Shown here piece after piece: positions 4,313 to 24,787 of a stretch of DNA of 33,498 nt (position 1 is its first letter; every line of letters starts with the position of its first letter). Source of the DNA: a virus; the IMG/VR virus record IMGVR_UViG_3300047380_000453, positions 1 through 33,498 of that record. One strand, given 5' to 3'. The notes below the pieces were generated by a model. That model was not told the origin of the DNA. It saw nothing but the letters and a program-made list of their open reading frames with translations, and did not search any database. A program made the position numbers and the translations under genes.

Positions 4313-4623
4313 AGAAGTTATGGGAACGCTATAAGGCGCATGATAAAAAAGTAAAAGAAGCACAAGCAAACTTTAAAGTTTCTGATATAAAGAACAAATA
4401 CGTTAGAGCATTGATGTGGATTTTTATGCTTAAATTTGTATGGGATATTACTACATTATTTGAAAAGTATTTGCCTATGCCAACAGTATATAAAATACTA
4501 GGATTAGGATGGACAAAGTTAGGCTATTATGTGTTTTGGTTATTATGGTTTATATTCTTAGTAGTAGTATTATACAATGTATTAGGTGAAGAAGCCTTTG
4601 ATAAGTTAGTTAACGAATTATGA
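4309..4623 (+). CDS. Small two-helix membrane protein
   Basis: 104 aa with a basic N-terminus (MKKLWERYKAHDKKVK) and two hydrophobic stretches. The first is around residues 42-58 (ALMWIFMLKFVWDITTLF). The second, stronger one is around 75-96 (YYVFWLLWFIFLVVVLY). A short acidic tail follows. It has no enzyme motif. It sits in ATGA overlaps between a radical SAM gene and a methyltransferase gene, so it is translationally coupled to the modification operon. It might anchor a modifying complex at the inner membrane or act on an envelope-linked intermediate; that is inference. Gene call strong, role unknown. Confidence 0.75.
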   Translation: MKKLWERYKAHDKKVKEAQANFKVSDIKNKYVRALMWIFMLKFVWDITTLFEKYLPMPTVYKILGLGWTKLGYYVFWLLWFIFLVVVLYNVLGEEAFDKLVNEL

Positions 4624-9119: not shown

Positions 9120-9276
9120 AGGACATATTGATTGTAGCGATGAAACAGCATTACAATCAGCTGACAGTTATTTTAAAAGGCTGTGGAGAGCAGGAAGTGA
9201 TGGTGCTCCTTTATATGCACGGGAAGAGGGATTCGAAGAGGCTTACTTAAATAAAAAACTAAGTTCTGGACAATAG
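9070..9276 (+). CDS. Small hypothetical protein
   Basis: 68 aa from ATG 9070, with GGAAGG at 9055-9060 as ribosome site. A GTG at 9040 in the same frame would extend it but has no better site. It is acidic and helical (MDEAELKEAYRLFWMVKG) with no recognisable domain. It overlaps the upstream radical SAM gene by 50 bases, and its last 34 bases overlap the end of the convergent minus-strand radical SAM gene at 9243. It closes the left plus operon. It could be a small partner protein. No homologue recognised. Confidence 0.5.
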   Translation: MDEAELKEAYRLFWMVKGHIDCSDETALQSADSYFKRLWRAGSDGAPLYAREEGFEEAYLNKKLSSGQ

Positions 9277-10367
9277 TCTAATACGTTTTCGTTTCTAATT
9301 TTATCTAAATCTTTTGTATACTTAACAAACGTGTCTAGCAGTTTACTATCGTCTTTGCTAGTGTACTTTATATTAGGAAATCTAAAATCAATTTTGTCTA
9401 ATACGCTGTTAGGTAAAACTTGCGGATTTAAGTAAGGCGGTGTTACTACAACATTTGTAAAATATATTTCCCAGTTGTCTTGTTTATTTTCTTCAAACCA
9501 CCAATACAGTTTATCTAAGTGTGCAATGTTATATGCCATAACAGTTGTAGTAATAATTACTCTAGTTGCAAAATTAAACTGTTTTAAATTTTCATTTAGT
9601 TCTGCAAACGTAAAGTTTTTACCACCTCTAATATATTCGTATAGTCCTTCAGTACCTTCAACACTTATATTCCATTTAGTTTGACCAAACTGTTTTGCAA
9701 GTTCATGTACTTCCTCATCTACAATAGTACCATTAGTAGTCCAGTCAAGTGTAATGTTTTTAGCGATACCAAGATCAATAAACTTTTGTAATATTATTTT
9801 GTTAGCAGGTTCCATGTAAGGTTCCCCACCTAGTATGCTTAGATATTGTAAGTTCATAAATGGAGTAGGATCTTCAAACAACCGTTCTATAATTTGTTCG
9901 CTTTTATTTGTGTAACCAAACTCTGGACTGTCAACAGGGCGTTGATAATTGCTGTCCAAATTATGTAATTTGATATCATCTTTAACCCAGGCACTAGAAG
10001 CAAGTCCACTACACATACGACATTTCAAATTACAAATATTACTCATATTAAACTCCAAAAAGTAGATATCTGTGAAGTTTTTTGAGTAGTCGTAATTGGT
10101 ATTTTCCAACATTGGATTGAGTGTATCACGGAAGAATAAACGTCTGCTATGACCTGCAGATTCTTCTTTTAACGTGCATTGTTGACAAGCTGGCGGTAAC
10201 ACTCCATTACGGAAGCTATCCTTTGTGTATGACGCTGTAACGCTGTCTAAGACGGTGTTTAAAGGTGTTTTAAGCACGTTACCATAGCGTTCTTTATACA
10301 CACAGCAGGGTACAATATCACCATTAAAGCGTACTGTAATACTATGCCAAGGAGCAAAACATTTCAT
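9243..10367 (-). CDS. Radical SAM protein with N-terminal twitch-like domain (group C)
   Basis: 374 aa. The N-terminus MKCFAPWHSITVRFNGDIVP is followed by CC, then CQQC further on, matching the group C auxiliary motif. The radical SAM core is SNICNLKCRMCSG (CX3CX2C) with LGGEPYMEP downstream. This is the last gene of the minus operon that starts at 15173. It overlaps the propeller-like gene at 10364 by 4 bases, so it is translated together with a probable substrate or scaffold. Its 3' end overlaps the convergent gene at 9070. It is shorter than the 433-aa paralogue at 6215, mostly in the C-terminal half. Confidence 0.85.
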   Translation of the reverse strand: MKCFAPWHSITVRFNGDIVPCCVYKERYGNVLKTPLNTVLDSVTASYTKDSFRNGVLPPACQQCTLKEESAGHSRRLFFRDTLNPMLENTNYDYSKNFTDIYFLEFNMSNICNLKCRMCSGLASSAWVKDDIKLHNLDSNYQRPVDSPEFGYTNKSEQIIERLFEDPTPFMNLQYLSILGGEPYMEPANKIILQKFIDLGIAKNITLDWTTNGTIVDEEVHELAKQFGQTKWNISVEGTEGLYEYIRGGKNFTFAELNENLKQFNFATRVIITTTVMAYNIAHLDKLYWWFEENKQDNWEIYFTNVVVTPPYLNPQVLPNSVLDKIDFRFPNIKYTSKDDSKLLDTFVKYTKDLDKIRNENVLDYCPELSFLFK

Positions 10368-11491
10368 ATTTTGGTTACCTCTTTTACCTTCAAATTATCA
10401 CCAAAAACAAAGATAAAATGTTCCTGTGTTTCGATGTGGTATCCTAATACATTTATGTAGTCTTTGTGTATAATAGGTCTACCAAAAATTAAACCTTTGA
10501 AAGTTTCGTCTTTAACAATATACCCTTGATCGTCAATTACTATAACAGGACAACTAGGTGTTCCGCTTGGAAAGAAGTACGCATTGCCTTTGTATTCAAT
10601 ACCACATCTAAATCTATATTTGCCACCAAAGTCTAATTTGATATCAAACTGTGTAGTTTCTTTTGTAACTGTATCAAATACTAATCCCCAGTTACTATCA
10701 TTAGCATGTTCATCACCGTAAGGTACAGCAACAATTTTATCACCTAGTAATACACCGCAGTTATATTTTTTAGCAAAGTCTACTCCGTCGATAGTATGAT
10801 ACGTAGCAGTATTTGTTTCTGTATCAAACTCTACAATAGTGTTAAGTCCTTTAGTTTCTCCAAACGGTAAACTGTATAATGTATTACCTTTAACAATAAT
10901 GTCTGTGTACTTTCTAGTAATATTAGGATCAACATCTAATTCATAACTTTGATATTGTTCACCATCAAAACTTAAAAGCGTATTGTAACCAGGTTCATCG
11001 CCTCTAGGCATACTCCAATATCGTCCGTTGCAGTACACAGTTCCCATATGTAACTTTTTACCTTTAATAGGCAACTCATGTGTTTTAATTATTCCGTCAA
11101 TGTACAATCCAAAGTTTGTATCTTCATATCCTAATGGAAAACTAAATGCAGTCTTTCCGTTTGTTGCTACACTATAAAATTGTCCTTTACCTTTGAATGG
11201 TAATGTATGATAGTAAGGTGTTGTGCCACGTAGTTCTACAACAGTATTGAATTCGTCCCAAATACCATATGGAAGAAACCAACTGCTATCTTTAATTTGT
11301 GCAACAGCATTAGTCTTGCTAGTTGCTGGTAGCAAATCTAAATTAATATAATCACCTTTGTAAAATACTTTACTGTAGTCTTTACATTTTTCTGTAGCAA
11401 ACGGAGGGCTCAGTAATTCATTGTTATGCTCAACTAGAAGCATATGCTTAATAGATTGTTCTTTGTAAAAGTCTTGAAATGCTTTATACAT
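10364..11491 (-). CDS. Beta-propeller-like repeat protein 1
   Basis: 375 aa with no catalytic motif. A unit of about 40-50 residues recurs around a core of hydrophobic strand, Pro-aromatic/Arg-Gly, acidic turn, Asn, then strand ending in FD. Visible copies: FLPYGIWDEFNTVV, FSFPLGYEDTNFG, WSMPRGDEPGYNTLL, YSLPFGETKGLNTIV, VAVPYGDEHANDS and YFFPSGTPSCP. Six or so copies suggest a six- or seven-bladed propeller, kelch- or NHL-like. Such folds bind ligands or proteins and are common in receptor-binding virion parts. It is homologous in pattern to the proteins at 11484 and 19723. It lies between the second propeller and a group C radical SAM gene, overlapping both. There is no signal peptide. Fold is inference from periodicity. 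Confidence 0.65.
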   Translation of the reverse strand: MYKAFQDFYKEQSIKHMLLVEHNNELLSPPFATEKCKDYSKVFYKGDYINLDLLPATSKTNAVAQIKDSSWFLPYGIWDEFNTVVELRGTTPYYHTLPFKGKGQFYSVATNGKTAFSFPLGYEDTNFGLYIDGIIKTHELPIKGKKLHMGTVYCNGRYWSMPRGDEPGYNTLLSFDGEQYQSYELDVDPNITRKYTDIIVKGNTLYSLPFGETKGLNTIVEFDTETNTATYHTIDGVDFAKKYNCGVLLGDKIVAVPYGDEHANDSNWGLVFDTVTKETTQFDIKLDFGGKYRFRCGIEYKGNAYFFPSGTPSCPVIVIDDQGYIVKDETFKGLIFGRPIIHKDYINVLGYHIETQEHFIFVFGDNLKVKEVTKI

Positions 11492-12728
11492 TATTTAGAT
11501 CCACAGTATGTACTACTTGTTCTTTTACTGTATCAAAAACTAATACAGTTTGAAATGATGCACTTTCTCCATATGGAAATGCAAAAATTACATCTTCATG
11601 TATTAAACAGTTGTTATACTTTTCTATTGTAGTTGAGTCTTTAAAATAATCTCCTACATCTATAGTATAGTACGAATCGTCTTTAGTGTCAACTACTAAT
11701 ATTTCTGCAAGGTCTCCTTGACTCTTCCAAGTTTCTATAGGTTCGCATACACAACCACCTCGAGGAATGTAATATAATTTTCCTTGGCTGTTTTCTACAC
11801 CAGCAAAGTATTTTTTACTTTCTTTTCCTATATGCAAATCTTGTGTGTACCATGCATCAATGTTGCTGTCAATGATAAGCATTTCACTCCAGTCTTCATC
11901 ATGTCCTGCAGGTGGAAAATAAATCTTCCCATTACGTGCAACAGTATGTGAATAATACATTCTGCTTGTTTCTTTTAATCCTGTGTTTTCACTAAACCAA
12001 CGTGTTCCGTCAAAACGTAATAAAGTATCAAACTCTGGGTTTTCGCTGTATGGCGGAGCATATAATTTACGTCCTACTTTTGCTAACGTAGTAAATTTTT
12101 TATTAGTGTATTGTATATCAGCTACGTCTAACCAATGGTTACGCATATCAATAATTTCGTATTTCATAGTGTTACAATCGTAATGAATTCTATGATGGAA
12201 CATAGGAGGATCAGGTGCTTCACCGCGAGGTACTCCGTAAATAATTCCATCTATCATTTGTGTAGTATGCCATTTTTTACAATCTTCAATTGGTACTTCT
12301 ATATGCACATGCGTTAGTGTATGGTCATTTAGATTAAGATGCATAGCCCAACTAAACGGTTCATGTTCTCCGTAAGGTAATGCTACAATTTCATTACCGT
12401 GTATATGTCCTTGTATGTATTTGCCTTTGCCTTTAGGAGATACTTCAATGTATTCTATAGCATCTGTTTCTGTATCAACAACTAGGATCTTACTTTCGTT
12501 ATATGGTAAGAAGTAAATTAAGTTACGGTAAACAATACCATTCTGCCACTTTTCTGTAGACTCGTCAACATCAAGTTTAATTTTTGTAATATCATATGTA
12601 GTTGGATCCATTTTAAGCATATAGTCAATGCTTTCGTTTAATCCAAATGGTGGAATGTAGATCATTCCATTACTACCTAGTGTAGCGTAACTAAAGGCTT
12701 GCGGGGTCAAATTTATCTCCAAATGCAC
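11484..12728 (-). CDS. Beta-propeller-like repeat protein 2
   Basis: 414 aa with eight recognisable repeat cores: IYIPPFGLNES, YFLPYNESK, VALPYGEHEP, YGVPRGEAPDPP, YAPPYSENPEFD, YFPPAGHDEDW, YYIPRGGCVCEP and FAFPYGESASF. Each is followed by strands often ending in hydrophobic-x-x-D. This points to a seven- or eight-bladed propeller. Copy 7 contains an unusual C-V-C pair, which could be a modification or metal site. ATG 12728 overlaps the kinase gene by 38 bases and has only a weak ribosome site, so translation is probably coupled. The next gene, propeller 1, overlaps it by 8 bases. Role unknown; candidate substrate or scaffold for the surrounding enzymes. Confidence 0.65.
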   Translation of the reverse strand: MHLEINLTPQAFSYATLGSNGMIYIPPFGLNESIDYMLKMDPTTYDITKIKLDVDESTEKWQNGIVYRNLIYFLPYNESKILVVDTETDAIEYIEVSPKGKGKYIQGHIHGNEIVALPYGEHEPFSWAMHLNLNDHTLTHVHIEVPIEDCKKWHTTQMIDGIIYGVPRGEAPDPPMFHHRIHYDCNTMKYEIIDMRNHWLDVADIQYTNKKFTTLAKVGRKLYAPPYSENPEFDTLLRFDGTRWFSENTGLKETSRMYYSHTVARNGKIYFPPAGHDEDWSEMLIIDSNIDAWYTQDLHIGKESKKYFAGVENSQGKLYYIPRGGCVCEPIETWKSQGDLAEILVVDTKDDSYYTIDVGDYFKDSTTIEKYNNCLIHEDVIFAFPYGESASFQTVLVFDTVKEQVVHTVDLNNV

Positions 12729-13146
12729 TTGTTAAATCAGAATGTAGTTTAGTCATGATTTGTTCTTCGTTGTATAACCCAACGTTATCCCAATCTACCA
12801 TATACATTTTATCACCGTCAATCATAATATTACTTAGTACCCAGTCGTAGTGTGCATACGGACTAGTTTCATTGATAGTAAACTTACAAAAGTCGTAAAT
12901 CTTTTTTATAAACTGTGGTGTGTGAGCAAACTCACTTGCCGGTGTACCAGGAACTTTGTGATATTCAATAAACATCTTTTCGTCATCAACGCCCCAATCA
13001 ATTACCCAGCCTTCCATAACTTCATCAAGTATAATAATATGTTCTTCAAGTCTTTCTCGATCAATCACAGTCCATTCTTTACGGAACCTGTCTTCAAGCT
13101 CAAATACTTTTCTACCCCATTCGGTATTTTCTTTAATTAATTTCAT
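12691..13146 (-). CDS. Mini APH/choline-kinase-like protein
   Basis: 151 aa with the catalytic core of an aminoglycoside phosphotransferase-type kinase. HYDWVLSN at residues 99-106 matches the HxDxxxxN loop (catalytic Asp101, metal-binding Asn106), and VDWDNVG at 117-123 gives the second metal Asp. A hinge-like strand EHIIILDEVMEGWVID precedes them. Normal members are 250-350 aa; this one has almost no N-lobe, with no glycine-rich loop and no clear ATP-binding lysine. It may phosphorylate a sugar or small molecule with a reduced fold, need a partner, or be a pseudokinase. ATG 13146 overlaps the upstream radical SAM gene by 14 bases, and its end overlaps propeller 2. The reading frame is intact, so this is not simple decay. 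Confidence 0.6.
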   Translation of the reverse strand: MKLIKENTEWGRKVFELEDRFRKEWTVIDRERLEEHIIILDEVMEGWVIDWGVDDEKMFIEYHKVPGTPASEFAHTPQFIKKIYDFCKFTINETSPYAHYDWVLSNIMIDGDKMYMVDWDNVGLYNEEQIMTKLHSDLTSAFGDKFDPASL

Positions 13147-14206
13147 AAGCCTTTGCCACCTCTGGCAAGTAATCTTTAATGTACATCTTACGCCAATTAT
13201 CTTGCTTTGTTATTTGTCTTATGAAGTGTTCAATAATTTTAGGATCACTGGGATGATCTGCCCATCCGTCAACATCTGGATGTATTCCTTTAAACTGTTC
13301 CTTTAAACTATCAGGAGCATTTTTAACATGTAACCACTCTGGAAGAATTAATAAGTTATCGTAAATTTTAAAATTATTCTTAGTAGCATATTCTTTAAGC
13401 TCGTCATAGTATAACGCATTAAGAATACTAAGTGTTGGAGTTACGTCAACTTTACAAAACTCTGCATACTTTTGTGCATTAACTTCTATTTCGTCCCATT
13501 TACTTCCGCTTCTAATGTAATTAATTTTATCACTTGCGGCATCTAAGCTAAGACTCATAACTACTAATTTAAATCTCTTTAGTAGTTTCTCAATTCTAGG
13601 GTTCCATAACGTTCCGTTAGTATTAAATCTAACTACTACACTTGGATCAAGTCTTTCTAAAAACTTATCTAAGTGTCTAACCATCATAGGTTCGCCACCT
13701 GTTAGATAAACTTCTCTAATAGGCAAGTCATCAAACTTTTTCATTGTTTCTTCTGATGCCCAATTAAAGTTTGGAACTTCAAGCACTCCGTGTAATGGAA
13801 CAATACCGGCCTTCTTCATTTCGATAGCTTCTTCGGCAATACTACTACTGCTCATTTCCCAACAGCTAACACATTTAAGATTACAACTATTACCAAATCT
13901 AATATCAAGATGACTTAGTCCAGGACCATAAAAGTTTCTAACGTATCTAGTACCGTCTGGTTTTACTCTAGTACGCATACTGTCAATACCTTGTAGTTCT
14001 TGTTGTTCACAACGTGTACAAGCATCTGGCCATTTACCTTCTTCCATCTCCTTAACAGTCTTTTTATGAAAGTCACTGTCATGCCATTCTTGTGGGGTAT
14101 GTGTTTTAATATTTTCTTTATTAGTTTGTTCAAGGCTAACACAACATAGACGATATTGTCCATCTGATCGTACACAAACTTGATTGTCTAAGTATTTACA
14201 TCTCAC
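13133..14206 (-). CDS. Radical SAM protein with N-terminal twitch-like domain (group C)
   Basis: 357 aa. The N-terminus MRCKYLDNQVCVRSDGQYRL is followed by CC, then ACTRCEQQE, giving the N-terminal auxiliary motif, though the PWxH of its paralogues is absent. The core is RFGNSCNLKCVSCWEM (CX3CX2C), followed by YLTGGEPMM and later VVRFNTNGTLWN. The start is a GTG (14206-14204) with GAGG 10 bases upstream, inside the end of the preceding radical SAM gene (11-base overlap). It is followed by the mini-kinase gene. Substrate unknown; family resemblance to the proteins at 6215 and 9243 is clear in the cysteine pattern. Confidence 0.84.
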   Translation of the reverse strand: MRCKYLDNQVCVRSDGQYRLCCVSLEQTNKENIKTHTPQEWHDSDFHKKTVKEMEEGKWPDACTRCEQQELQGIDSMRTRVKPDGTRYVRNFYGPGLSHLDIRFGNSCNLKCVSCWEMSSSSIAEEAIEMKKAGIVPLHGVLEVPNFNWASEETMKKFDDLPIREVYLTGGEPMMVRHLDKFLERLDPSVVVRFNTNGTLWNPRIEKLLKRFKLVVMSLSLDAASDKINYIRSGSKWDEIEVNAQKYAEFCKVDVTPTLSILNALYYDELKEYATKNNFKIYDNLLILPEWLHVKNAPDSLKEQFKGIHPDVDGWADHPSDPKIIEHFIRQITKQDNWRKMYIKDYLPEVAKAYEIN

Positions 14207-15173
14207 CGCAGGTTACCTCACATATTTTAAATCTGTTTTTACTTGGCATTAATAATTCTTCACCTTCAATTATATCTGTTAATGATCTATCGTTTACATT
14301 TGGCCATACAATATCATTTTGTTGTTTAGCATACGGACTATTAATGTCTTTAGGCCAACGGTCACTTAGTAAGTAACAACAAGGTAATACTTCACCTATA
14401 TGGTTAATTTGTATTTTTCTTTTGTTTTGCCATTTGCATTTTATAGTAGTTTCGCTAAAGTCTTTAATTTTTTCTAATCTTTCAACTTGGTCAAGATGTT
14501 TACTATCATATTTAACTACACGAGCTTCGTCTTTTTTATTTGCTTTAAATTTTTCAATAGCACCGTCAACTATACTATTAAGAGCAGTAAAAGTATAACC
14601 ACCATTAATGTCAAATTTTAAAAAGCCCATGTCTTTGCTTAACTGTTCTACTTCTTCTAACTGATGTGCATTATGTTCAAACACTAGCATACGCCAACGT
14701 GCTTTACCACCGGCTTGTATAAACGCTTTAGCGTTATTCATAATGCGTTCCCATATAACTCCTCGTCTGTACAAATGATTAGTATCTTCTAATCCGTCTA
14801 TACTCCAAGTAACGCCACTAGGTTGCTTAAATTTCTTTAATACGTTTGCTAGTGCAACATATTGTTCTGGCATACCTACACCACCATTAGTATGAATCAT
14901 AATTTGTATATCTTCTGAAGCGGCATATTCAAGTGCTTCAACCAAAATAGGATTCATTAATGCATCACCATAATTACCATTAAATATTATTTCATTAGTA
15001 GTAGCATTATCTATGATATTTTTCCATGTTTCCATAGTCATGTGGCTTAATGGCATTGAAGGATTTACCTTAACACCACCTAAATTTCTACTACAATTTC
15101 CGCACATAGAATTACAATGACTTGTGAAATCAACGACAATCGCATCTAGTGTATCAGCAGTTAGGTAAGGCAT
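14196..15173 (-). CDS. Radical SAM/SPASM-type protein (group B)
   Basis: 325 aa from ATG 15173. CX3CX2C is at residues 20-27 (CNSMCGNC). GNYGDALMNP replaces the GGEP, as GNLGDPIMAKD does in the paralogue at 5224. The C-terminal cysteines are IKCKWQNKRK, GEVLPCCYLL and FKICEVTCGEM, a SPASM-like auxiliary region. I prefer ATG 15173 because it gives the same distance to the first cysteine as in the paralogue. An ATG at 15203 (10 residues longer) is possible, and the frame stays open to 15278. Neither has a Shine-Dalgarno site. This is the first gene of the minus operon, divergent from the oxygenase gene at 15213. It overlaps the next radical SAM gene by 11 bases. Confidence 0.82.
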   Translation of the reverse strand: MPYLTADTLDAIVVDFTSHCNSMCGNCSRNLGGVKVNPSMPLSHMTMETWKNIIDNATTNEIIFNGNYGDALMNPILVEALEYAASEDIQIMIHTNGGVGMPEQYVALANVLKKFKQPSGVTWSIDGLEDTNHLYRRGVIWERIMNNAKAFIQAGGKARWRMLVFEHNAHQLEEVEQLSKDMGFLKFDINGGYTFTALNSIVDGAIEKFKANKKDEARVVKYDSKHLDQVERLEKIKDFSETTIKCKWQNKRKIQINHIGEVLPCCYLLSDRWPKDINSPYAKQQNDIVWPNVNDRSLTDIIEGEELLMPSKNRFKICEVTCGEM

Positions 15174-15186
15174 AAGTATATTTAAC
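15171..15186. promoter_or_regulatory. Possible pair of imperfect late promoter boxes
   Basis: Between the two divergent operons the plus strand has CATAAGTA (15171-15178), and directly next to it the minus strand has GTTAAATA (15186-15179). Each differs by one base from the NATAAATA boxes elsewhere in the window. The plus box would give a leader of about 29 bases for the gene at 15213. The minus box would start transcription at about the ATG at 15173, a nearly leaderless message, which would fit the missing ribosome site. Weak evidence. Confidence 0.3.
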
Positions 15187-15212
15187 AGATAGTTTAATGA
15201 CATAGTAGAGTT

Positions 15213-15911
15213 ATGACAGCAGATATAGAACACATAAAACGTAGAAAAGACATTGTTACTGTAAAGTATCCAGAGCAATTTGACCCTAAATGGGTTATAA
15301 TGGAAAGTGGCTGGCCTTGTTTTAGGCTAAGTGCATTAGATAACCAGCCTTGGAAAGAAATGCACAAAGAAGCTGAAGCACTTGCAGACAAGTTTCATTT
15401 ACACAGAGAAACTACATATGGCAAAGGTTGGAAAAGTCTAACACTACACGGACTAAATGAAGATACTCAAAGTTTAAACACTTACGGTGATAGACAAGAA
15501 TCAATTAAACAGCTAGATTGGACTTGGGTAGCAGACGAATGTCCTGTTACTAAAAAGTTTTTAACAGATGTGTGGCCTGCAGAGTTTTTAAATCGTGTAA
15601 GATTTATGTTACTTGAACCAGGTGGATACATTCTTCCACACCAAGATAGGTCAGATGAAGAAAAGCGTTTGAGTGTTTGTAATATTAGTCTAAACAATCC
15701 AGAAAATTGTAACTTTATTTTTAAAGACCACGGTATAGTTCCGTTTGAAGACCAAGGTAGTGCGTTCCTTATGGACATATCAAACGTACATGCAGTATAT
15801 AACGATAGTGATACGCCTCGTATACATATGATTATACATTATGAACTAGGCAGACGTATTAGAGATTTCTTTTATGTACTAAGACAAAGCTATTATACTA
15901 ATCAGGGGTAA
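15213..15911 (+). CDS. 2OG-Fe(II) oxygenase, aspartyl beta-hydroxylase-like
   Basis: 232 aa. The iron site is HQD at residues 143-145 (ILPHQDRSD) with His193 (SNVHAVYN), and Arg203 (TPRIHMIIH) is placed to bind the 2-oxoglutarate carboxylate. This HxD...H...R spacing is that of the aspartyl/asparaginyl beta-hydroxylase group, which hydroxylates side chains in proteins. The part before residue 120 is not recognised and may hold the substrate site (FRLSALDNQPWKEMHK). It opens the second plus operon, with one base between its stop and the ATG of the next gene. It is the longest of the operon's hydroxylases after the one at 18976. Confidence 0.78.
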   Translation: MTADIEHIKRRKDIVTVKYPEQFDPKWVIMESGWPCFRLSALDNQPWKEMHKEAEALADKFHLHRETTYGKGWKSLTLHGLNEDTQSLNTYGDRQESIKQLDWTWVADECPVTKKFLTDVWPAEFLNRVRFMLLEPGGYILPHQDRSDEEKRLSVCNISLNNPENCNFIFKDHGIVPFEDQGSAFLMDISNVHAVYNDSDTPRIHMIIHYELGRRIRDFFYVLRQSYYTNQG

Positions 15912-15912
15912 C

Positions 15913-17382
15913 ATGAAAGACTGGAATAGCATCACAGCTGATAGATACTACGAGAATCTCAACCTTGACAACCGTGTTGGTGTAGGTATTCTTGATATTA
16001 GTCGCGACATACCAAATGCTACAGTACAAAAACGTTCTTTTGATATGACATACTTTTATATCAATCGCATGTTAAAGATGGGCATGTGTAATTACGTAGG
16101 ATTTCATAAACGTGTTGAAACAATTCTTGAAGAAGCACTAGCAAAAGACAAAGAGTTTGCAATGGTAGCATGTCAAGGACTGTTATTGTTTAGAGGACCA
16201 AGTTTAGTGCAACAAAGTGTGGAATATGCTGAAAACAATCCGCAGTTTTTTGTAGTTGGTCACATCATGGACAAAAAGAATCAACATTATCTTACTAAAG
16301 GTGCATACCCTGGGTTACATAGACAATACTTGTTTGTAAATTTAAGCAAATGGGTTGAACTAGGAAAGCCAGCATTTGATGAGATGGGTGTTTTCTGGGA
16401 CAGAAAACCGGAGTTGCAAAATTATTGTCTAAGTGAAGATACTATTCATAGTAATTACACACCTAAGTGGATTAAAAACATGCAAGGTACAAGTAAGTAT
16501 GCTACAACTAGCGATGGTTCTAATTGGATTGATATTGCTATGCGTAAAAACATACAGATTGATAATTTAGACAACGACATGCGAGCCTGCAAAGTATTTT
16601 TATATCCTTATAGTGATTCAGATAAGTTAGGTGCAGTATGGTACAACAAACAAAGCCCTATAGTAGATGAATTAACTAATCAAAGTCAAAAAGCCTGGAT
16701 TAGAAAACAAGCATACCAAGAAGAGATAGAAAAGAATAGAGTATATGCGTTTAACACAGAAACTTTAAGTAGTGAAGGAGTAAGGACAGGCGGAAAACTA
16801 ATCGATCATTTGTTTAGTGCGGCCGCAGGATTTAAACCACTTGCAATATTAAATGCAAACGGCTTTCATGAAGGTACTACAGTACATTACTTTGATTGGT
16901 GCGAAGCAAGTTTAAATTATAAGAAACATTTATTAGAAACTTGGGACGGTTACGATTTAGACAAGTGGTTAATAGAAAATGATTTAGATTATAACTTTAG
17001 TTCTACGTACAGAGGAAACTATAAAAAGTTTTGGGAGCAAGAACTAAAAGACTTTGGAGGCTCATTAGCATTTCAAAGACTATGGAGTAGGTACAGAGAC
17101 CTTAAACATGAGTTTCATGTAGTAGATCTTATATATGATAATACTAAACTGTTTGATGTTATTAATAGTGTACATGGTACTAAGGTAATGTGGACTACTA
17201 ACATATGGTCAAGTGAAATGTTACATTGGAATGTAGAGCCAGAAGAGTTAGAACAGCAATGGTTAAAGTTTGAAGCACAAATACCAAACGACCTTGTACT
17301 ATATGGACATGATTATATTGCAGTTGATATGAATTCACGAGTGCGTGACAACGTACAGTTAACACACCCGAGGTACGCCTAA
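15913..17382 (+). CDS. Large hypothetical protein of unknown function
   Basis: 489 aa, the largest protein in the window, starting at ATG 15913 with AGGGG upstream. No motif identifies it. The N-terminal half reads like an alpha/beta domain, with VGVGILDISRDIP, EFAMVACQGLLLFRG and FFVVGHIMDK. Another alpha/beta segment begins near residue 310, with FKPLAILNANGFHEGTTVHY then DWCEASLNYK. The order of strand, Gly loop, strand and acidic residue resembles a nucleotide- or SAM-binding fold, but this is weak. There is no signal peptide or membrane helix. It overlaps the next hydroxylase gene by one base (TAATG), so it belongs to the modification operon. It could be a two-domain transferase or a scaffold. 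Function unknown. Confidence 0.7.
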   Translation: MKDWNSITADRYYENLNLDNRVGVGILDISRDIPNATVQKRSFDMTYFYINRMLKMGMCNYVGFHKRVETILEEALAKDKEFAMVACQGLLLFRGPSLVQQSVEYAENNPQFFVVGHIMDKKNQHYLTKGAYPGLHRQYLFVNLSKWVELGKPAFDEMGVFWDRKPELQNYCLSEDTIHSNYTPKWIKNMQGTSKYATTSDGSNWIDIAMRKNIQIDNLDNDMRACKVFLYPYSDSDKLGAVWYNKQSPIVDELTNQSQKAWIRKQAYQEEIEKNRVYAFNTETLSSEGVRTGGKLIDHLFSAAAGFKPLAILNANGFHEGTTVHYFDWCEASLNYKKHLLETWDGYDLDKWLIENDLDYNFSSTYRGNYKKFWEQELKDFGGSLAFQRLWSRYRDLKHEFHVVDLIYDNTKLFDVINSVHGTKVMWTTNIWSSEMLHWNVEPEELEQQWLKFEAQIPNDLVLYGHDYIAVDMNSRVRDNVQLTHPRYA

Positions 17383-18029
17383 TGGAAATGAAGCGTTATA
17401 TAGAAAAGCACGACCAAGCAGACTTAGGTTGGGCAGTTAAAAAGTTATGCAAGGTTAATCCATACTCAATGCAAAGTTGGTACGCTGACTTAGAAAGAGA
17501 TTATAGTGATTGGAAGTTTGTTATAGGAGAACAGCAACACGTATGGCAGTTTCCTATTAGTGATCCTGAAGCAAAGACAGGACATCGTCTAATGGACGAT
17601 ACTGCATACTATACACTATGTTGGAACAGTAACGAACCAGGACCTAAGCCATTTGAACAAGGTTGTGCAAAGCCAGAGTATCGAGACAACGACAATGATG
17701 AACTTAACCCAAGAGAATGCTTTAAAGGTTATGCACTAGACGTTGTAAATAATTTGCCAATGCGTAGTAAGAAGTGGTTAGTAACTATTCATACTCCAGG
17801 CACTAAACTAATTACACACCAAGACAGTCCAGATAAACTTCGTGTACACATTCCTATACACACTAATGAAGATAGTAATTGGATTATAGGTGGCGAAACA
17901 TATCACATGGAACCAGGTTGGGCATATCTTGTTAATACAACTATTCCGCATAGTGTGGAAAACAAAGGTAGTACAAATAGAATACATTTATACGGAAAGG
18001 TTTGGACAGATGATTGCCGTAAGTTATAG
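17382..18029 (+). CDS. 2OG-Fe(II) oxygenase, aspartyl beta-hydroxylase-like
   Basis: 215 aa. HQD at residues 146-148 (LITHQDSPDKLRVHIPIHTN), His190 (TTIPHSVEN) and Arg200 (TNRIHLYG) complete an HxD...H...R site. The segment LRVHIPIHTN after the HxD and the phrase WAYLVNTTIPH are shared almost word for word with the proteins at 18428 and 18976, so the three are paralogues. ATG 17382 overlaps the previous stop and has GAGG 9 bases upstream; ATG 17388 is an alternative. The next gene starts inside its last 20 bases. Probable protein or amino-acid hydroxylase; substrate unknown. Confidence 0.8.
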   Translation: MEMKRYIEKHDQADLGWAVKKLCKVNPYSMQSWYADLERDYSDWKFVIGEQQHVWQFPISDPEAKTGHRLMDDTAYYTLCWNSNEPGPKPFEQGCAKPEYRDNDNDELNPRECFKGYALDVVNNLPMRSKKWLVTIHTPGTKLITHQDSPDKLRVHIPIHTNEDSNWIIGGETYHMEPGWAYLVNTTIPHSVENKGSTNRIHLYGKVWTDDCRKL

Positions 18030-18438
18030 TAAGAAAGACTTTGTATCTAAAATGCAAAAAGAAAATATTACAGATACAACAGTTGAAGATACCAACGACT
18101 ATTATATTTGTATTGATTCAACAGGCGGTCCTAACTCAGAGCCATACTTTGAACAGTTTCACCCTAATGTATTAAATTTATGTTTTGATGACGTTTCAAA
18201 AGACAGTACAAATTGGGGCGAAGATATTAAAGACTATTACACAGCCGTTGCACCAACACTAACACAAATTCAACATATTTCAAATTTCCTTAAAGACGCC
18301 TGCGGAACAATTCATATACATTGTATGAAAGGCGAATCACGTAGTAAAGCCGTTGCAGATTATGTAAATAATACGAGAATCAAGCACGACGGAAAGTATG
18401 CGTATACAATTATAAGGGACACACTAGATGAACTTTGA
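18010..18438 (+). CDS. Dual-specificity/tyrosine phosphatase-like protein
   Basis: 142 aa. IHIHCMKGESRSKAVADY contains the HCX5R signature of cysteine-based phosphatases (His104, Cys105, Arg111), followed by a helix as in dual-specificity phosphatases. An upstream LCFDDVSKDS could hold the general-acid Asp (60 or 61). These enzymes remove phosphate from proteins, RNA ends or sugars through a phosphocysteine intermediate. The open frame extends upstream to 17890, but that part overlaps the hydroxylase gene, so ATG 18010, with GGAAAGG upstream, is the likely start. It overlaps the next hydroxylase by 11 bases. It may oppose the mini-kinase at 12691; that pairing is inference. Confidence 0.65.
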   Translation: MIAVSYSKKDFVSKMQKENITDTTVEDTNDYYICIDSTGGPNSEPYFEQFHPNVLNLCFDDVSKDSTNWGEDIKDYYTAVAPTLTQIQHISNFLKDACGTIHIHCMKGESRSKAVADYVNNTRIKHDGKYAYTIIRDTLDEL

Positions 18439-18979
18439 TGTAAAAGAAATATCAGCCAAAATAGACTATAGTGATGTTAGAAGTTATCTTATAGGCTTAG
18501 AAAAAAACTATGCACACTTAAAGTTTACTAATGTAGCTGATACTGTTGATAGTGAAAAACATAAAACTGATGGAGTATATGGTTGGGGTATACAAAGTAA
18601 TTTAGACGACTTAACAATACCATGTCCACCTTGGAACGTACATAAAGAACGTAGCGACAATTATAGAGATACTGTATTAGTACATGGCGTAATTAATAAA
18701 CTTAGAAAACAGTTTCCACAAGCAAGACAGTTTAGTATTAGTGGACATCCACCGGGAACTGAAATAGCACAACATACTGATACTGACAGATATCTCAAAA
18801 TACATATTCCTATATTATCTAACCCAGATGCAAAATTTGTATTTGGTGATAAAACATATTCGCTAACTGTAGGAAAAGCATATCTAATAAATACTACACG
18901 CCCACACGGAACTATTAATAACGGAAAAACTGATAGAGTACATTTATTTTTTAAAGTGCCTGCGGAACATTACATATGA
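18428..18979 (+). CDS. 2OG-Fe(II) oxygenase, aspartyl beta-hydroxylase-like
   Basis: 183 aa, the shortest of the paralogues. HTD at residues 116-118 (IAQHTDTDRYLKIHIPI), His160 (TTRPHGTINN) and Arg170 (TDRVHLFF) form the iron and 2-oxoglutarate site. The N-terminal region is shorter than in its neighbours, so substrate binding probably differs. ATG 18428 lies inside the phosphatase gene, and the end overlaps the next hydroxylase gene by ATGA. Being in a tandem of three related hydroxylases interrupted only by the phosphatase suggests local duplication. Confidence 0.8.
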   Translation: MNFDVKEISAKIDYSDVRSYLIGLEKNYAHLKFTNVADTVDSEKHKTDGVYGWGIQSNLDDLTIPCPPWNVHKERSDNYRDTVLVHGVINKLRKQFPQARQFSISGHPPGTEIAQHTDTDRYLKIHIPILSNPDAKFVFGDKTYSLTVGKAYLINTTRPHGTINNGKTDRVHLFFKVPAEHYI

Positions 18980-19704
18980 GATTATTAAAACCTAAAGATA
19001 TAACAGACGTTGATACATTGTTTGATAGTCTCGAATGGGATATGATTGAATTAGATTTTAGCATTGACAAAGATGACTTAGAATCTTATCATAAAGAACT
19101 ACGATCACGTTTACAACATCTTTGTTTTAATTTTAATTCTAAAGAATACCTACGTCCTGATATATACGAAAGATTTCAAAAAGAAAATGCTGTAGGAAAC
19201 TATGTAGGAAACGTAGGTGGTTGGAGTGTTAGTTGGCCTGTAGAAAGAGATATTCCGTGTCCAAGTAAAACACAAGCTAATGTTTCTAAGTACCCAGAAT
19301 TACAAGACCTTGATGAAGAAAAGTTCTATTACGATTGCGTACCAATGCAAGTTTATAAGTTTGGTATTCTAAATAAAATGATAGAAACTTTATCTTTACA
19401 AGCCCTAAGACAAATACTGATAGCACTACACCCGTCAGGGCTAAAAGTTAATACACATACTGACGGAAAAACTAGAAAACTACACGTTCCATTTCATACT
19501 AATACTGATGCAGTTTTCACTTTTGGTGAAAATAGAGAACGCAAATATCATATGGAATTGGGCAAAGGTTACATAATTAACACCCTTGTACCCCATGGTA
19601 CAGAGAACCCAGGAAACACAGATCGAGTACATTTGTTATCCAGAGTTGACGATTCATTTATGCAATCGCTTTTATCAATAAACTGCAATATAGCAGATAA
19701 ATAA
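18976..19704 (+). CDS. 2OG-Fe(II) oxygenase, aspartyl beta-hydroxylase-like
   Basis: 242 aa. HTD at residues 161-163 (VNTHTDGKTRKLHVPFHTNT), His207 (LVPHGTENPG) and Arg217 (TDRVHLLS) form the site. GWSVSWPVERDIPCPSKTQA in the N-terminal half aligns by eye with GWGIQSNLDDLTIPCPPW of the previous protein. Between the HxD and distal His it has a small insertion with FGENRERKYH. It ends just after a late-promoter box (19696-19703) that serves the downstream propeller gene, so that promoter lies within its coding region. Substrate unknown; protein hydroxylation is the family norm. Confidence 0.8.
   Translation: MRLLKPKDITDVDTLFDSLEWDMIELDFSIDKDDLESYHKELRSRLQHLCFNFNSKEYLRPDIYERFQKENAVGNYVGNVGGWSVSWPVERDIPCPSKTQANVSKYPELQDLDEEKFYYDCVPMQVYKFGILNKMIETLSLQALRQILIALHPSGLKVNTHTDGKTRKLHVPFHTNTDAVFTFGENRERKYHMELGKGYIINTLVPHGTENPGNTDRVHLLSRVDDSFMQSLLSINCNIADK
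19696..19703 (+). promoter_or_regulatory. T4-type late promoter box inside gene end
   Basis: GATAAATA lies at the very end of the hydroxylase gene. Transcription would start near 19709, leaving a leader of about 14 bases containing CAGGAG (19711-19716) before ATG 19723. The short leader and strong ribosome site point to high late expression of the propeller-like protein, as for a virion component. Confidence 0.55.
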
Positions 19705-19722
19705 CAGTAACAGGAGATAATA

Positions 19723-20970
19723 ATGAGCAACACATATTTTACACAGGTATTAGACGAGCCATACCACTTAGGAAATGGCGAGTTTTTGTCAGTGATCACT
19801 AACGGAAAAGTACGCCACGAAGGCGAAGAATCAAGAGATTTTAACAAAGATGCAGGAGCGAGAGCAGGCTTACTTAGAGTAAATGCTGATAAGACTACGT
19901 TTGTAGACTTCTTTGATAAAAGTGAAAACGGTGACAGATACCGTGGCATTGCAGTTGTAGGTAATACAGCATACGTAATGCGTACACAAAAAGATAAAGT
20001 AGATAGCACAATTAGAGTAGCGGCAATAGATTTAACAACTAATGAAGTTACTATGATCGAAGAAAAAGGTGTAACAGTACACGGCTCAGAAACTCCTAAA
20101 ACGTTCTGTGGACACTTTAACTTTGGTAGACCAATTACAGTTGGTACTAAAATTGTTTATCCACCAATTATGAGTGGAATGATTATTGTGTTTGATACAG
20201 TTGCTAATACATTTACAGTACATGAAACAGAAGAAAAGTTTGCTTCTATTCATAGTGTGTATGTAAAAGAACTAAACGAAGTTGTATTTTTTCCATATGG
20301 TAGAACAACTAACGTCCTGTTAACATTAGATATGGGAACAGATAAAATTACATCACACATGGCGCCAACTAACGGTGCGTTTTATCATGTTAACACAAAC
20401 GGAACTAAAGCAGTTGGTGCTCCATTAATTATGGACGGTACTACAGAATTTAACTTTTGGGTATATGACGGTGATACAATTCAATCAGTTGCTTATGATT
20501 CATCTAGCACAGATGACATGGGTGGACAAATGGGTTTCAAATACGGAACTATGAACGGTAACACATTATTAACACATACTTGTTGGGAAGGCTGTAAAGA
20601 GTTTGTATCATTAAACTTAGATACACTTGCTATAGACCATTTTGCAACTAACGAATCGTTAGGTAGTAAGCCTGTTATTAATGCTGGTGATGTTTACTTG
20701 TTTCCATCAATACAAAACCCAAGCATGGTAAATCCAACAACTAAAGTTTTTAAAGTTGAAGGAACTGCAATCAATGAAGTTATGGACTTAGGTACTGCAA
20801 ATATTACTTCAGGATCAATTAACGATACTGATAGTGTTACAATGTTAGCACCTTACAAGTTTGATCTTAGTGATGCAGGCTTAGGCGGTGACATGGCTAT
20901 TGTAGATCTTAATACTAAAACATCAAAACTTCTTCCAGTTAATTTAAGCCTAGAAACTTACAGTAGTTAA
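19723..20970 (+). CDS. Beta-propeller-like repeat protein 3
   Basis: 415 aa. The repeats are more divergent than in the two minus-strand relatives but still periodic: IVYPPIMSGMIIVFDTVA, VVFFPYGRTTNVLLTLDMG, VGAPLIMDGTTEFNFWVYDG, a WEGCKEFVSLNLDT unit and YLFPSIQNPSMVNP. Each core is a strand, Pro-rich turn, then a strand ending in a hydrophobic-Asp step, and Asp-Thr blade ends (FDTVAN, NLDTLA) recur. It has no signal peptide and no catalytic motif. It has its own late promoter and CAGGAG ribosome site, unlike the enzymes upstream, and is followed after 5 bases by the halogenase gene. I infer a displayed virion or substrate protein. A metabolic propeller enzyme cannot be excluded. Confidence 0.65.
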   Translation: MSNTYFTQVLDEPYHLGNGEFLSVITNGKVRHEGEESRDFNKDAGARAGLLRVNADKTTFVDFFDKSENGDRYRGIAVVGNTAYVMRTQKDKVDSTIRVAAIDLTTNEVTMIEEKGVTVHGSETPKTFCGHFNFGRPITVGTKIVYPPIMSGMIIVFDTVANTFTVHETEEKFASIHSVYVKELNEVVFFPYGRTTNVLLTLDMGTDKITSHMAPTNGAFYHVNTNGTKAVGAPLIMDGTTEFNFWVYDGDTIQSVAYDSSSTDDMGGQMGFKYGTMNGNTLLTHTCWEGCKEFVSLNLDTLAIDHFATNESLGSKPVINAGDVYLFPSIQNPSMVNPTTKVFKVEGTAINEVMDLGTANITSGSINDTDSVTMLAPYKFDLSDAGLGGDMAIVDLNTKTSKLLPVNLSLETYSS

Positions 20971-20975
20971 GTAGT

Positions 20976-22196
20976 ATGCGTATCTGCATTATAGGTGGAG
21001 GTACAACAGGCTGGTGGTGTGCAGGCTACATGGAGAAGTTTCTTCCTGATGCTGAAATTACCTTAATTGAATCTGATAATATTCCTATCATAGGAGTAGG
21101 CGAATCTACACTTCCAATGATTAAAACGTTCTTTGATAAGATAGGCGTTGACGAATCTAAATGGATGCCTGAATGTAATGCTATACACAAATACGGAAAT
21201 GTAAAAACTAATTGGGATAAAGCAGACGGAGAACCTTTTGCTTTTACTTTTTGGTATAACGATAACGATACATTTTCTAAATGGTATAAAGAATACGAAG
21301 CAGGTAATAAAACAAAACATCAAATCAACGATGACTTATATGATACTGAAGCATGGCGAGCAGTTGCATATCATTTAGATGCTGAAAAGGCAGGACAGCT
21401 AGTTAAAGATAATTGTAAAAATGTTATTCATAAAATAGCAACGCTAGACAAATTACCTGAAGGCTACGACTTATATGTAGACTGTACAGGATTTCGTAGA
21501 CAGTTTGTTAAAGATAAAACAGAAACAGTATATGATCATCATTTAGTAGATAGTGCATGGGTATGTCCGTTTGAACATGATAAAGACATTTCACACTATA
21601 CAGAATCAATTGCAAGAGAAAACGGCTGGCAGTTTGTTATTGACTTAACAAATAGAATAGGTACAGGATATGTGTTCTCAAGTCAACATACATCAGACGA
21701 AGAAGCACTAAAGAGCTTTAAAGAGTACAATGCACATAGAACTCCGTTTATGGGTAAAGAGCCTAGATTACTTAAATGGAAGCCTAACATACTAACTAAT
21801 CCGTGGACAGATAATGTTGTTGCTGTAGGTCTTTCTAATGGGTTTATTGATCCTTTAGAGTCTAATGCATTGTTTATGACGCAGTATAGTATTACTTTAT
21901 TAGTTGATTGTATTAAAAGAAATGCAAAACAAGGCGTGTATAATAGAAGTATGCGTAACTTGTGGAAAGAAAATAGCGAGTATATTCTACATCATTACAT
22001 GTTAAGTAAAAGAACAGATACTGATTTTTGGAAGTATTATAGCAAGTTTGATGTTACAAAAACTCTATGGGACAATTACACTAAACGTGGTAACAAGTAT
22101 ACTAATTTATATCCTGATGCTATATGGGCAACGCTAGGATTATATCACGATGAGTTCGAACACTACGAGCCTAAAGATTTAGCTCTTTCTTCATAA
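20976..22196 (+). CDS. Flavin-dependent tryptophan halogenase family protein
   Basis: 406 aa. The FAD-binding GGGTTGWWCAGYM is at residues 7-19, with GVGESTLP at 40-47. AIHKYGNVKTNW includes Lys72, in the position of the catalytic lysine of PrnA-type halogenases. IDPLESNALFMTQ matches the region of the active-site glutamate. The WxWxIP motif is changed: NGWQFVIDLTNRIGTGYVFS occupies its place. Canonical enzymes are about 500-540 aa, so roughly 100 residues are missing, mostly in the substrate lid and C-terminus. They chlorinate or brominate an indole or phenol, using reduced FAD, halide and O2. Homologues are known from marine phages. It may act on a protein-bound aromatic residue. Its 3' end overlaps the convergent GNAT gene by 34 bases. 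Confidence 0.85.
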   Translation: MRICIIGGGTTGWWCAGYMEKFLPDAEITLIESDNIPIIGVGESTLPMIKTFFDKIGVDESKWMPECNAIHKYGNVKTNWDKADGEPFAFTFWYNDNDTFSKWYKEYEAGNKTKHQINDDLYDTEAWRAVAYHLDAEKAGQLVKDNCKNVIHKIATLDKLPEGYDLYVDCTGFRRQFVKDKTETVYDHHLVDSAWVCPFEHDKDISHYTESIARENGWQFVIDLTNRIGTGYVFSSQHTSDEEALKSFKEYNAHRTPFMGKEPRLLKWKPNILTNPWTDNVVAVGLSNGFIDPLESNALFMTQYSITLLVDCIKRNAKQGVYNRSMRNLWKENSEYILHHYMLSKRTDTDFWKYYSKFDVTKTLWDNYTKRGNKYTNLYPDAIWATLGLYHDEFEHYEPKDLALSS

Positions 22197-22702
22197 TACT
22201 TACTAACATTAATACGCCACAAACTTTGCGGAACGTTATATAGTTCTATAGTTTGTTCTAAATGCCATACACCTCTTTTAGCAATTAACGGTGCGGCAAC
22301 ATCATTAGCACGTTTACTTTTACCGCCATCATTGTTTACGTTAGTACTAATATAAAGTTCTGCATTAGGATTTTGTGCTAACGCCCATTCCATTTGCATA
22401 GGTAACATATGACCAAAGTGTATACCTGTCTTAAAAAAGTCTCTACCACTGCCTAGTGTATATCCTGGTAACTGAGCACCACGAAACAAACAACGATAAG
22501 CATTTGTACTTACTTCCGGCAAAGAGTGTATACCTGCAATACTAACAATTTTATTATCAACTATAGCAACTGTCCAAGCACCGGTATCTAAACACCATTG
22601 CCATTTCATTTTTTCTAAAGAAGTATTATTACTAAAGTTTTGACTGTTACAAAAATCTAATACTTTATCTTTATCGTTTGCTGTAGCGAATCTAAAATCC
22701 AT
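22163..22702 (-). CDS. GNAT-type N-acyltransferase-like protein
   Basis: 179 aa. MDFRFATANDKDKVLDFCNS opens like a GNAT domain (strand, helix). It continues with WTVAIVDNKIVSIAGIHSL, the paired beta strands of motif D/A, and the segment MQMEWALAQNPNAELYISTN resembles the helix and strand of motif B. A Q/RxxGxG/A acetyl-CoA loop is not distinct; PGYTLGSGRDFFKTG may stand in. It is translated after the adenylation protein at 22692 (11-base overlap). Together they could activate and transfer an acyl group, as in aminoacyl or fatty-acyl modification of sugars or lysines. Its end overlaps the halogenase gene on the other strand. Fold call moderate. Confidence 0.6.
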   Translation of the reverse strand: MDFRFATANDKDKVLDFCNSQNFSNNTSLEKMKWQWCLDTGAWTVAIVDNKIVSIAGIHSLPEVSTNAYRCLFRGAQLPGYTLGSGRDFFKTGIHFGHMLPMQMEWALAQNPNAELYISTNVNNDGGKSKRANDVAAPLIAKRGVWHLEQTIELYNVPQSLWRINVSKYYEERAKSLGS

Positions 22703-23366
22703 TCTTCCAAGTTCGTCCTGTTGGTTCTTTTAATCTTCCGTGAAACTCTTTTGTGTCCATGTTAAAAACATCGCCTGTTGACTTACCATTAATAATACAA
22801 TGCTGTAAGTTATGTCCACCGGACGCTTGTAACGGCATAAACATAACGTGGTTTTCTTTTTGGTCAATAGTGGTTAAATCAAAACTAGGTGAGTCGTACC
22901 CAATCATTACAGGTGGAGCATATTCTGTCATGCCATACCAATTAGCAACTGTTTGTACACCACGCTCTTTAAAAGCATCAATAAATGATTGTTCAATTTT
23001 ACTGCTACCTGTAACCATATAACGTACACAACTCATGTCTAAGTCTTTAAAGCCTTTTGTCTTTTGTAACAATTCTAAATGGCGTGGAATTAACGCTATA
23101 TACGTCGGTTTAACGCTATTAAACAGCTTAGGGTAGGTAAGTGCATTAAAGTTGCTACTAACTAGCTGTGCGCCGCTTATATAAGCAGGATGAGCTGTTA
23201 TAGTGTAGTGTGCTATAGTGTTTGCAGGAAAGACATCTAGTACAATGTCGTCTTTAGTTAAACCAATTTCTTTTGCTGAACGTTCTGCACAATGGTTAAT
23301 ATGTTCCCAAGAATGTGTAACAACTTTGGGTTGGTCCGTACTACCAGATGTGAATAAAGTAAGCAT
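22692..23366 (-). CDS. Minimal AMP-binding (ANL) adenylation domain
   Basis: 224 aa. FTSGSTDQPKVVTHSW (residues 5-20) is the ATP-phosphate-binding A3 motif of the ANL superfamily, here at the very start of the protein. VANWYGMTEYAPP matches the A5 motif, and KSTGDVFNMDTKEFHGRLKE resembles the A7 region (GD...G....GR). Normal members are 500 aa or more. This one lacks the N-terminal subdomain before A3 and the whole C-terminal subdomain with the A10 lysine. The frame is intact and compact, so it looks like a selected minimal form rather than decay. It would activate a carboxylate as its AMP ester, perhaps handing it to the overlapping GNAT protein. The ribosome site before ATG 23366 is weak. 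Confidence 0.72.
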   Translation of the reverse strand: MLTLFTSGSTDQPKVVTHSWEHINHCAERSAKEIGLTKDDIVLDVFPANTIAHYTITAHPAYISGAQLVSSNFNALTYPKLFNSVKPTYIALIPRHLELLQKTKGFKDLDMSCVRYMVTGSSKIEQSFIDAFKERGVQTVANWYGMTEYAPPVMIGYDSPSFDLTTIDQKENHVMFMPLQASGGHNLQHCIINGKSTGDVFNMDTKEFHGRLKEPTGRTWKNGF

Positions 23367-23410: not shown

Positions 23411-24787
23411 TTAAGCGATCATCTTGATCCAAGCCGCGCCATCGTAAAATACTGGATAAGCGTTTCCTGAACCAACACTAACTGGATCCCAAGTAATTCT
23501 ATCTGCAATAGCTAACATGCCTACAGTTGGTGTACTTGGTTCTGCCGCCAATGGTTTTAATTTTGCAAAACCGTTAACGTCTAGTGTCGCTAATGGAGCA
23601 TATGAAATAGTATTAGCAATAGCCATACTACCATCTGCTACAATGCTTGTTGCAACTAAGTCTGGAACACTTGCTGATCCATTGTTGTTGATAAACATCA
23701 TTTTACCCTTTGCAGTATCTGCCGAAACAGTTGTGCCTGGGTCAATTTGGAATGTAACAACACTTGATGGAACATTGTTGCCTGTTGATCCATCTAAACT
23801 TCTTGCTTGGATAGCACCTAAGTAATCACCTGCTGTACCTTGTGTAGGTGTTGTCATACTTCCGTGTAATCCTGTGAATGCCATTTTATAAGCACCACCA
23901 AATCCTGCTTGTGCTAAACCAATCATGTCAATCGGTGGAGCACCGTCTACTGAGTAAACGTTAATACCTGTACTAGCTACGTCACCTGCCGCACCAAAGT
24001 CAACTGTAGTTAAACCATTCTTTAGTTTAATTACGTTAGCATTAGCAAACATAGAACCGTTGTCAAATTTAACTGTTCCGTTGACGCCATCAATAATAGC
24101 ACTACTGTCATCACTGTAAACTGAACCTGTTATATCACCTGTAAATGTTCCTGTGAATGTTGGTGCTGATACTGTACTTGTAAATACACCTGTACTTGCG
24201 TTTACTGTTTTAAGTGCTGGATTATAAAATACTGTTGCATCGTTGGCTTTAACTGTACCTGTTAGCTCACCTGATACTGCAACAGCACCAGTAGCAACAT
24301 TTAATAATACTGTACTGTCATTACCTATAACATTTGCATTAATACTAAGTGCATCAATTTGATCTGTAACAGTTAGTGTATTAAGATGTGCTGAAGCAAA
24401 CTTATTGTTAGGTCCACCTAAGCTTCTTGCTCCGTCTACGTCTGGAATAATATCTGATTCAATTTTAGCTGATAAATTAACTGTATCTGTGGCCGCATCA
24501 CCAATAGTAAGGTTGCCACCAATAGTCATATTACCATCAGCAGTAATGTTTCCAGTTGCAGTAATGTTCCCTGTTACGTTTACATTACCTGTACCTGTTA
24601 AGTTATAATTGTTTAGATCTAAGTCTGCACCAAGAAACGTACCAGCTGTATCAACTGCTAACCCGCCTGCTGTGGTTCCATCCCCTACATACAGCTTTTT
24701 AGTGTCTGTAGTATAGATCAACTCCCCATCTAGTGGAGTAATTAGAGCCCTTTGGGCATTCGTTCCTCTTCGTAATCTTAAAGCCAT
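23411..24787 (-). CDS. Tail-fibre-like virion protein
   Basis: 458 aa. The N-terminus ALRLRRGTNAQRALITPLDG and then LIYTTDTKKLYVGDG form the short particle-attachment module found in many marine phage fibre and Mtd-like proteins. It is followed by low-complexity Gly/Asn/Thr/Val repeats (GNVNVTGNITATGNITADGN and similar) typical of beta-helical or triple-stranded fibre shafts. A C-terminal region ending NAYPVFYDGAAWIKMIA is common in phage structural proteins. There is no cysteine. A late promoter (24816-24823) lies about 29 bases upstream of the ATG. It lies at the border between core genes and the modification island, as fibre genes often do. Probably host-recognition or baseplate-associated; exact place unknown. 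Confidence 0.8.
   Translation of the reverse strand: MALRLRRGTNAQRALITPLDGELIYTTDTKKLYVGDGTTAGGLAVDTAGTFLGADLDLNNYNLTGTGNVNVTGNITATGNITADGNMTIGGNLTIGDAATDTVNLSAKIESDIIPDVDGARSLGGPNNKFASAHLNTLTVTDQIDALSINANVIGNDSTVLLNVATGAVAVSGELTGTVKANDATVFYNPALKTVNASTGVFTSTVSAPTFTGTFTGDITGSVYSDDSSAIIDGVNGTVKFDNGSMFANANVIKLKNGLTTVDFGAAGDVASTGINVYSVDGAPPIDMIGLAQAGFGGAYKMAFTGLHGSMTTPTQGTAGDYLGAIQARSLDGSTGNNVPSSVVTFQIDPGTTVSADTAKGKMMFINNNGSASVPDLVATSIVADGSMAIANTISYAPLATLDVNGFAKLKPLAAEPSTPTVGMLAIADRITWDPVSVGSGNAYPVFYDGAAWIKMIA

Follow-up and report, generated by a model that had tools for sequence, protein, structure and literature searches.

A trimmed branch of phage flavin-dependent halogenases, linked to 2OG/Fe(II) oxygenases, in marine T4-like viruses

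Flavin-dependent halogenases annotated as 'PrnA' (phrog_2928; cyanophage T4-GC 212) are known from T4-like marine phages, where they belong to a variable genome region with nearby 2OG oxygenases and include short members, with genes of 1104, 1116 and 1167 bp listed for T4-like cyanophages (PMC3037559, Table 3). VirX1 of cyanophage Syn10 (PDB 6qgm) has a large open site that takes many small aromatics (PMC8407142), while a natural substrate was found for none of the phage halogenases in the literature searched. Halogenases that act on peptides, such as MibH, SrpI and MppI, carry out one step in a sequence of tailoring reactions (PMC12615548), and MibH requires prior hydroxylation of a proline. 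The WxWxIP motif is thought to hold the substrate off the flavin and thereby to prevent hydroxylation, and the roles of its residues remain unclear (PMC10696468). Since some active halogenases lack it, e.g. Bmp5 (PMC8407142), the motif alone neither defines nor excludes membership of the family. Among the residues lining the substrate site of CHEESY1 are the second Trp and the Ile of the motif (PMC12645471).

Here we describe a halogenase gene in a viral stretch of 33,498 nucleotides (IMG/VR record IMGVR_UViG_3300047380_000453), the whole of which is referred to as the window; its features and neighbours are listed in Table 1. The product matches PF04820 over residues 2-364 in a profile search (E=2.4e-73), passing the gathering score of 21 with 248 bits, and phrog_2928 'tryptophan halogenase' with E=1.2e-88, while PDB sequence searches returned RebH, PrnA, PyrH, Thal, VirX1 and others. 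An AlphaFold model built with 47 viral sequences as input reached a pLDDT of 93.5 and a pTM of 0.91, compared to a pLDDT of 65 with 13 sequences. Foldseek comparisons of this model demonstrated that the halogenase fold is present, with TMq values of 0.85-0.86 for Xcc4156 (PDB 6y1w), 0.82-0.83 for BrvH (6frl), 0.82-0.85 for RebH/PrnA and 0.76-0.82 for VirX1, and E values of about 1e-31 to 1e-34 for Xcc4156, VirX1, BrvH and RebH. Xcc4156 and BrvH, although among the best matches, are cellular enzymes of 491-505 aa in their structures, and BFVD contains a 393-aa halogenase of an uncultured phage (TMq 0.82, 26% identity). In summary, the ORF is a real, conserved halogenase of marine T4-like viruses that represents a trimmed branch of a known family, and it probably encodes a working enzyme. 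It shares the PF04820 fold and the Lys/Glu pair with the phage 'PrnA' halogenases, but the best match among phage isolates is only about 33% identical, and the long phage homologues sampled have about 455-545 aa and mostly keep GWxWxIP. A repeat search around the gene returned nothing relevant to it.

Table 1. Features of the halogenase gene and its neighbours in the window.
Feature	Position	Strand	Remarks
PF05118 2OG oxygenase	15213..15911	+	First in run
489-aa protein without known family	15913..17382	+	Homologues near halogenase in several other phages
PF05118 2OG oxygenase	17382..18029	+	
PF05118 2OG oxygenase	18428..18979	+	4-nt overlap with next gene
PF05118 Asp/Asn-hydroxylase-type 2OG oxygenase	18976..19704	+	Same run of genes
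Beta-propeller-like protein	19723..20970	+	5-nt gap before halogenase; weak match to designed propeller Scone, E=3e-4
Flavin-dependent halogenase ORF, 406 aa	20976..22196	+	Trimmed phage subfamily; ATG at 20976, stop 22194-22196
GxGxxG FAD-binding motif, GGGTTG, residues 7-12	20994..21011	+	Glycines invariant in close alignment
Catalytic Lys72 (= RebH K79)	21189..21191	+	HMMER alignments; invariant in 47 viral relatives
Trimmed segment from Lys72 to motif	21192..21623	+	144 aa vs mostly 167-209 in long phage and cellular relatives
GWQFVIDL instead of GWxWxIPL, residues 217-224	21624..21647	+	GWQF in 33/33 distinct clade sequences
FIDPLESNA with catalytic Glu295 (= RebH E357)	21843..21869	+	'FxxPxxSxG' tunnel motif, G to A
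Trimmed C-terminus	22032..22193	+	54 aa after Trp352 vs 77-137 in long relatives; Trp-clamping loop absent
179-aa protein without assigned family	22163..22702	-	Convergent; overlaps halogenase 3' end by 34 nt
Short 224-aa AMP-binding (adenylate-forming) domain protein	22692..23366	-	E=2.7e-20
Mtd_N (major tropism determinant N-terminal) domain protein	23411..24787	-	Probable fibre protein

The initial annotation had described a shortened enzyme that keeps the FAD motif and the catalytic lysine, and both are indeed in place, with Lys72 aligning with the catalytic Lys of RebH. Glu295, the Glu of the PLES sequence, is like Lys72 invariant in 47 viral relatives, and the pair corresponds to Lys79 and Glu357/346 of RebH/PrnA; the RebH numbers presume an offset of 20 residues in the PDB chain, with which both residues fall on their published positions, K79 and E357. 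In the FxxPxxSxG region Ala replaces Gly, and several relatives in the viral clade of 33 sequences described below also carry Ala for Ser. The described exchange in the WxWxIP region was likewise recovered: WQFVID stands in its place, with W218 and I/V222 kept. Since G217, W218, Q219 and F220 do not vary across a close alignment of 13 members and GWQF recurs in all 33 clade sequences, this is not a chance change, and the expected Pro is replaced by D, G or A in the clade members and retained in none. The exchange of the second Trp for Phe was also found in a few other phage halogenases (the second copy in locus L084, two in L101, and S-RIM4 in L122), and Tyr occupies this position in L120 and Leu in one copy of L105. 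In a small sample of bacterial homologues drawn by short patterns, the second Trp is kept in 35 of 35, five of which have Gly for Pro. Given that the corresponding Trp of CHEESY1 forms part of the substrate-site lining, Phe220 most likely alters the substrate side rather than the flavin chemistry.

The shortening by about 100 residues that had been noted initially also held up, as solved relatives have 497-550 aa, and the missing residues are split between the C-terminus and the stretch that separates Lys72 from the motif. A comparison with a RebH-like Streptomyces enzyme places among the lost C-terminal residues 'SYYDNFDVEFRNFW', which we take to be the RebH loop binding the amino-acid part of free Trp, and a free-Trp clamp of the RebH/PrnA type is thus absent. 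RebH and PrnA themselves, which are tryptophan 7-halogenases with the same FAD domain, are about 100 aa longer and keep both WxWxIP and this C-terminal loop, which binds the amino-acid part of Trp. Because the missing part includes the clamp loop, the substrate cap is likely to have been cut back, and the substrate side is probably altered and roomier. An opened active site, as proposed initially, is therefore a reasonable reading as far as the Trp-to-Phe exchange and the deleted clamp loop are concerned, but an origin of shortening and motif change in one event is not supported, given the long sister halogenases (below). Short halogenases had been recorded from phages before, so that shortness alone is nothing new. 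Further short ones are the 399-aa enzyme of Campylobacter phage IBB_35, the 387-aa one of S-RIM4 and a 402-aa copy in L101; these gave long-branch warnings, which leaves their placement on the tree unsure.

Two IMG/VR scans retrieved close relatives with 49-97% identity in phage contigs. Among 83 distinct viral homologues, 33, including that of the window, form one group on one side of a branch with an SH-aLRT support of 100, all with GWQF and none with the Pro. Members of this clade have 389-418 aa (with L070 7517-8728 counted as 403 aa from its upstream GTG start), while most other homologues have 440-545 aa, save three short ones. Nei-Gojobori dN/dS values against the window were 0.08-0.20, with synonymous sites near saturation in the more distant pairs, and demonstrate purifying selection on the gene; together with the clade-wide conservation they rule out decay or a truncation artefact. 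A cellular origin of the clade was also rejected, as the 27 bacterial loci found in a single pattern-based scan did not exceed 34% identity, and each of the 35 proteins extracted from them keeps the second Trp. The sister lineage consists of L082 (525 aa) and L083 (504 aa from an upstream start), which are full-length in both segments and carry GWRFQIGL and GWRFKVCL, without the Pro. Since this lineage is long and yet has GWRF, the losses of Trp and Pro would have preceded the shortening, provided that the tree, which comes from a quick search and gives support of 98-99 here, is correct. The related contigs are T4-like where testable, with a gp23 capsid protein in six of 18 and the remainder mostly fragments. 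Two clade halogenases stand in near-tandem in L070 (6001-7179 and 7517-8728), and the record of L022 (G007) holds three PF04820 genes.

In the window the halogenase closes a dense array of plus-strand genes (15213-22196) that also holds four PF05118 oxygenases, the 489-aa protein, a 182-aa HCxxxxxR protein and a propeller-like protein. The 489-aa protein is common to several halogenase-bearing phages (19-79% identity) and returned neither a credible PDB match nor any match in Pfam or NCBIfam, and phage isolate records contained no homologue. The 182-aa protein (17890-18438; phrog_5614) carries a motif, HCMKGESRS, that by eye resembles the active site of dual-specificity phosphatases. The three propeller-like proteins of the window (10364-12728 and 19723-20970) gave no Pfam match above cut-off, and the third had no homologue in phage isolate records. 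The AMP-binding protein is shorter than usual adenylating enzymes and has relatives at the same place in L002 and L009; a further relative, AMP-binding-like and identified by visual inspection, adjoins the long sister halogenase of L083. Moreover, one island at 3353-15278, near a UDP-glucose-dehydrogenase-like gene, contains seven radical SAM genes, the majority of them with SPASM domains, and six of 18 related contigs hold 7-18 radical SAM matches each.

Across the clade, the gene directly upstream of the halogenase encodes a 2OG/Fe(II) oxygenase in 15 of 32 loci, in all of which it abuts or, often, overlaps the halogenase start; an oxygenase is the second gene upstream in the window, L002 and L003. 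This slot is filled by two oxygenase families (profiles A5 and A3), which together match 38 of the 521 ORFs in the clade loci overall, and with near-copies grouped by eye on the tree, the direct link is found in about seven of about 12 sublineages. In the types represented by L005, L011, L021 and L042 the direct neighbour is instead an SbmA/BacA transporter, an RpiB-type isomerase or a small protein. An SbmA/BacA-like peptide transporter gene (PF05992) lies one to three genes upstream of the halogenase in L011 (6151-7119; E=1e-138), L005 (4607-5578) and L021 (1890-2864), the latter two copies being judged by similarity. In cyanophage S-SSM7 (L110) a long halogenase stands amid carbamoyltransferase, nucleotidyltransferase and phosphoheptose isomerase genes, which may point to a substrate attached to a glycan in that phage.

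These observations suggest, at about even probability in our estimate, a two-component FAD halogenase with a trimmed cap that serves as the tailoring partner of a 2OG/Fe(II) hydroxylase on a bulkier or differently shaped aromatic. No flavin reductase (PF01613) was found in the window or in 16 related contigs, of which the largest (184-236 kb) may be near complete and the others are fragments; reduced FAD would thus most naturally be supplied by a host reductase. With O2 and halide it would yield HOX, which would move to the Lys72/Glu295 site and halogenate an electron-rich aromatic ring. With the cap cut back and Phe for the second motif Trp, free Trp would no longer be clamped, and a bulkier or differently shaped aromatic would probably be accepted. 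Nor was a carrier protein (PF00550) found in the window or these contigs, which points away from a carrier-tethered substrate, and an NRPS-type substrate of this kind was rejected. The oxygenase gene would be co-transcribed with the halogenase gene, and activity, substrate class and the order of the two steps are likewise inferred. Against this reading stand the types without an oxygenase as direct neighbour, the mostly fragmentary related contigs and the change in WxWxIP, the motif thought to stop hydroxylation (PMC10696468).

That same change would fit an enzyme that now acts as a flavin hydroxylase while losing the motif, as both the second Trp and the Pro are lost across the clade; however, the residues for halogenation, Lys72 and Glu295, are invariant, W218 and I/V222 are retained, and active halogenases such as Bmp5 do without the motif (PMC8407142), which makes this reading most improbable. 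Halogenation of a free small aromatic of the indole, phenol or azaindole type, with the trimmed cap merely broadening the range, is possible but rather doubtful. It would agree with the wide range of VirX1 and with the rank of VirX1 among the closest folds, yet the conserved oxygenase linkage and the position at the end of a dedicated gene run suggest a specific partner substrate. Moreover VirX1, which has the Lys and the Glu, has 530 aa with a long C-terminus and keeps GWVWNIPLW, and is thus no model for the GWQF motif.

Protein-bound Tyr or Trp of the phage, in a propeller or in the Mtd_N fibre protein, appears unlikely as the substrate, even though both genes lie near the halogenase in the window, the sister halogenase in L083 adjoins an AMP-binding-like gene and a similar fibre-type gene, and halogenases acting on peptides exist (PMC12615548). 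The initial annotation had named the propellers as an example, but the window, L002 and L003 are the only loci with a propeller gene immediately before the halogenase; in L009 it stands two genes upstream, and in the other 28 loci it does not adjoin the halogenase; since this linkage is confined to one sublineage, the propeller was dismissed as a general substrate. Likewise, no precursor peptide or leader was recognised in a survey that was not systematic, and no halogenated virion protein was found in the literature searched. A joint action of halogenase and 2OG hydroxylase on aromatic residues of a fibre or propeller protein, with altered adsorption as the outcome, is accordingly very unlikely in our view.

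Halogenases occur widely among marine T4-like phages, and the subfamily described here is a variant of them that is linked to 2OG oxygenases. This linkage provides a handle on what these phages modify, and a subfamily of about 400 aa with a natural W-to-F swap in WxWxIP offers a direct test of the role of the motif, a question raised previously (PMC10696468).
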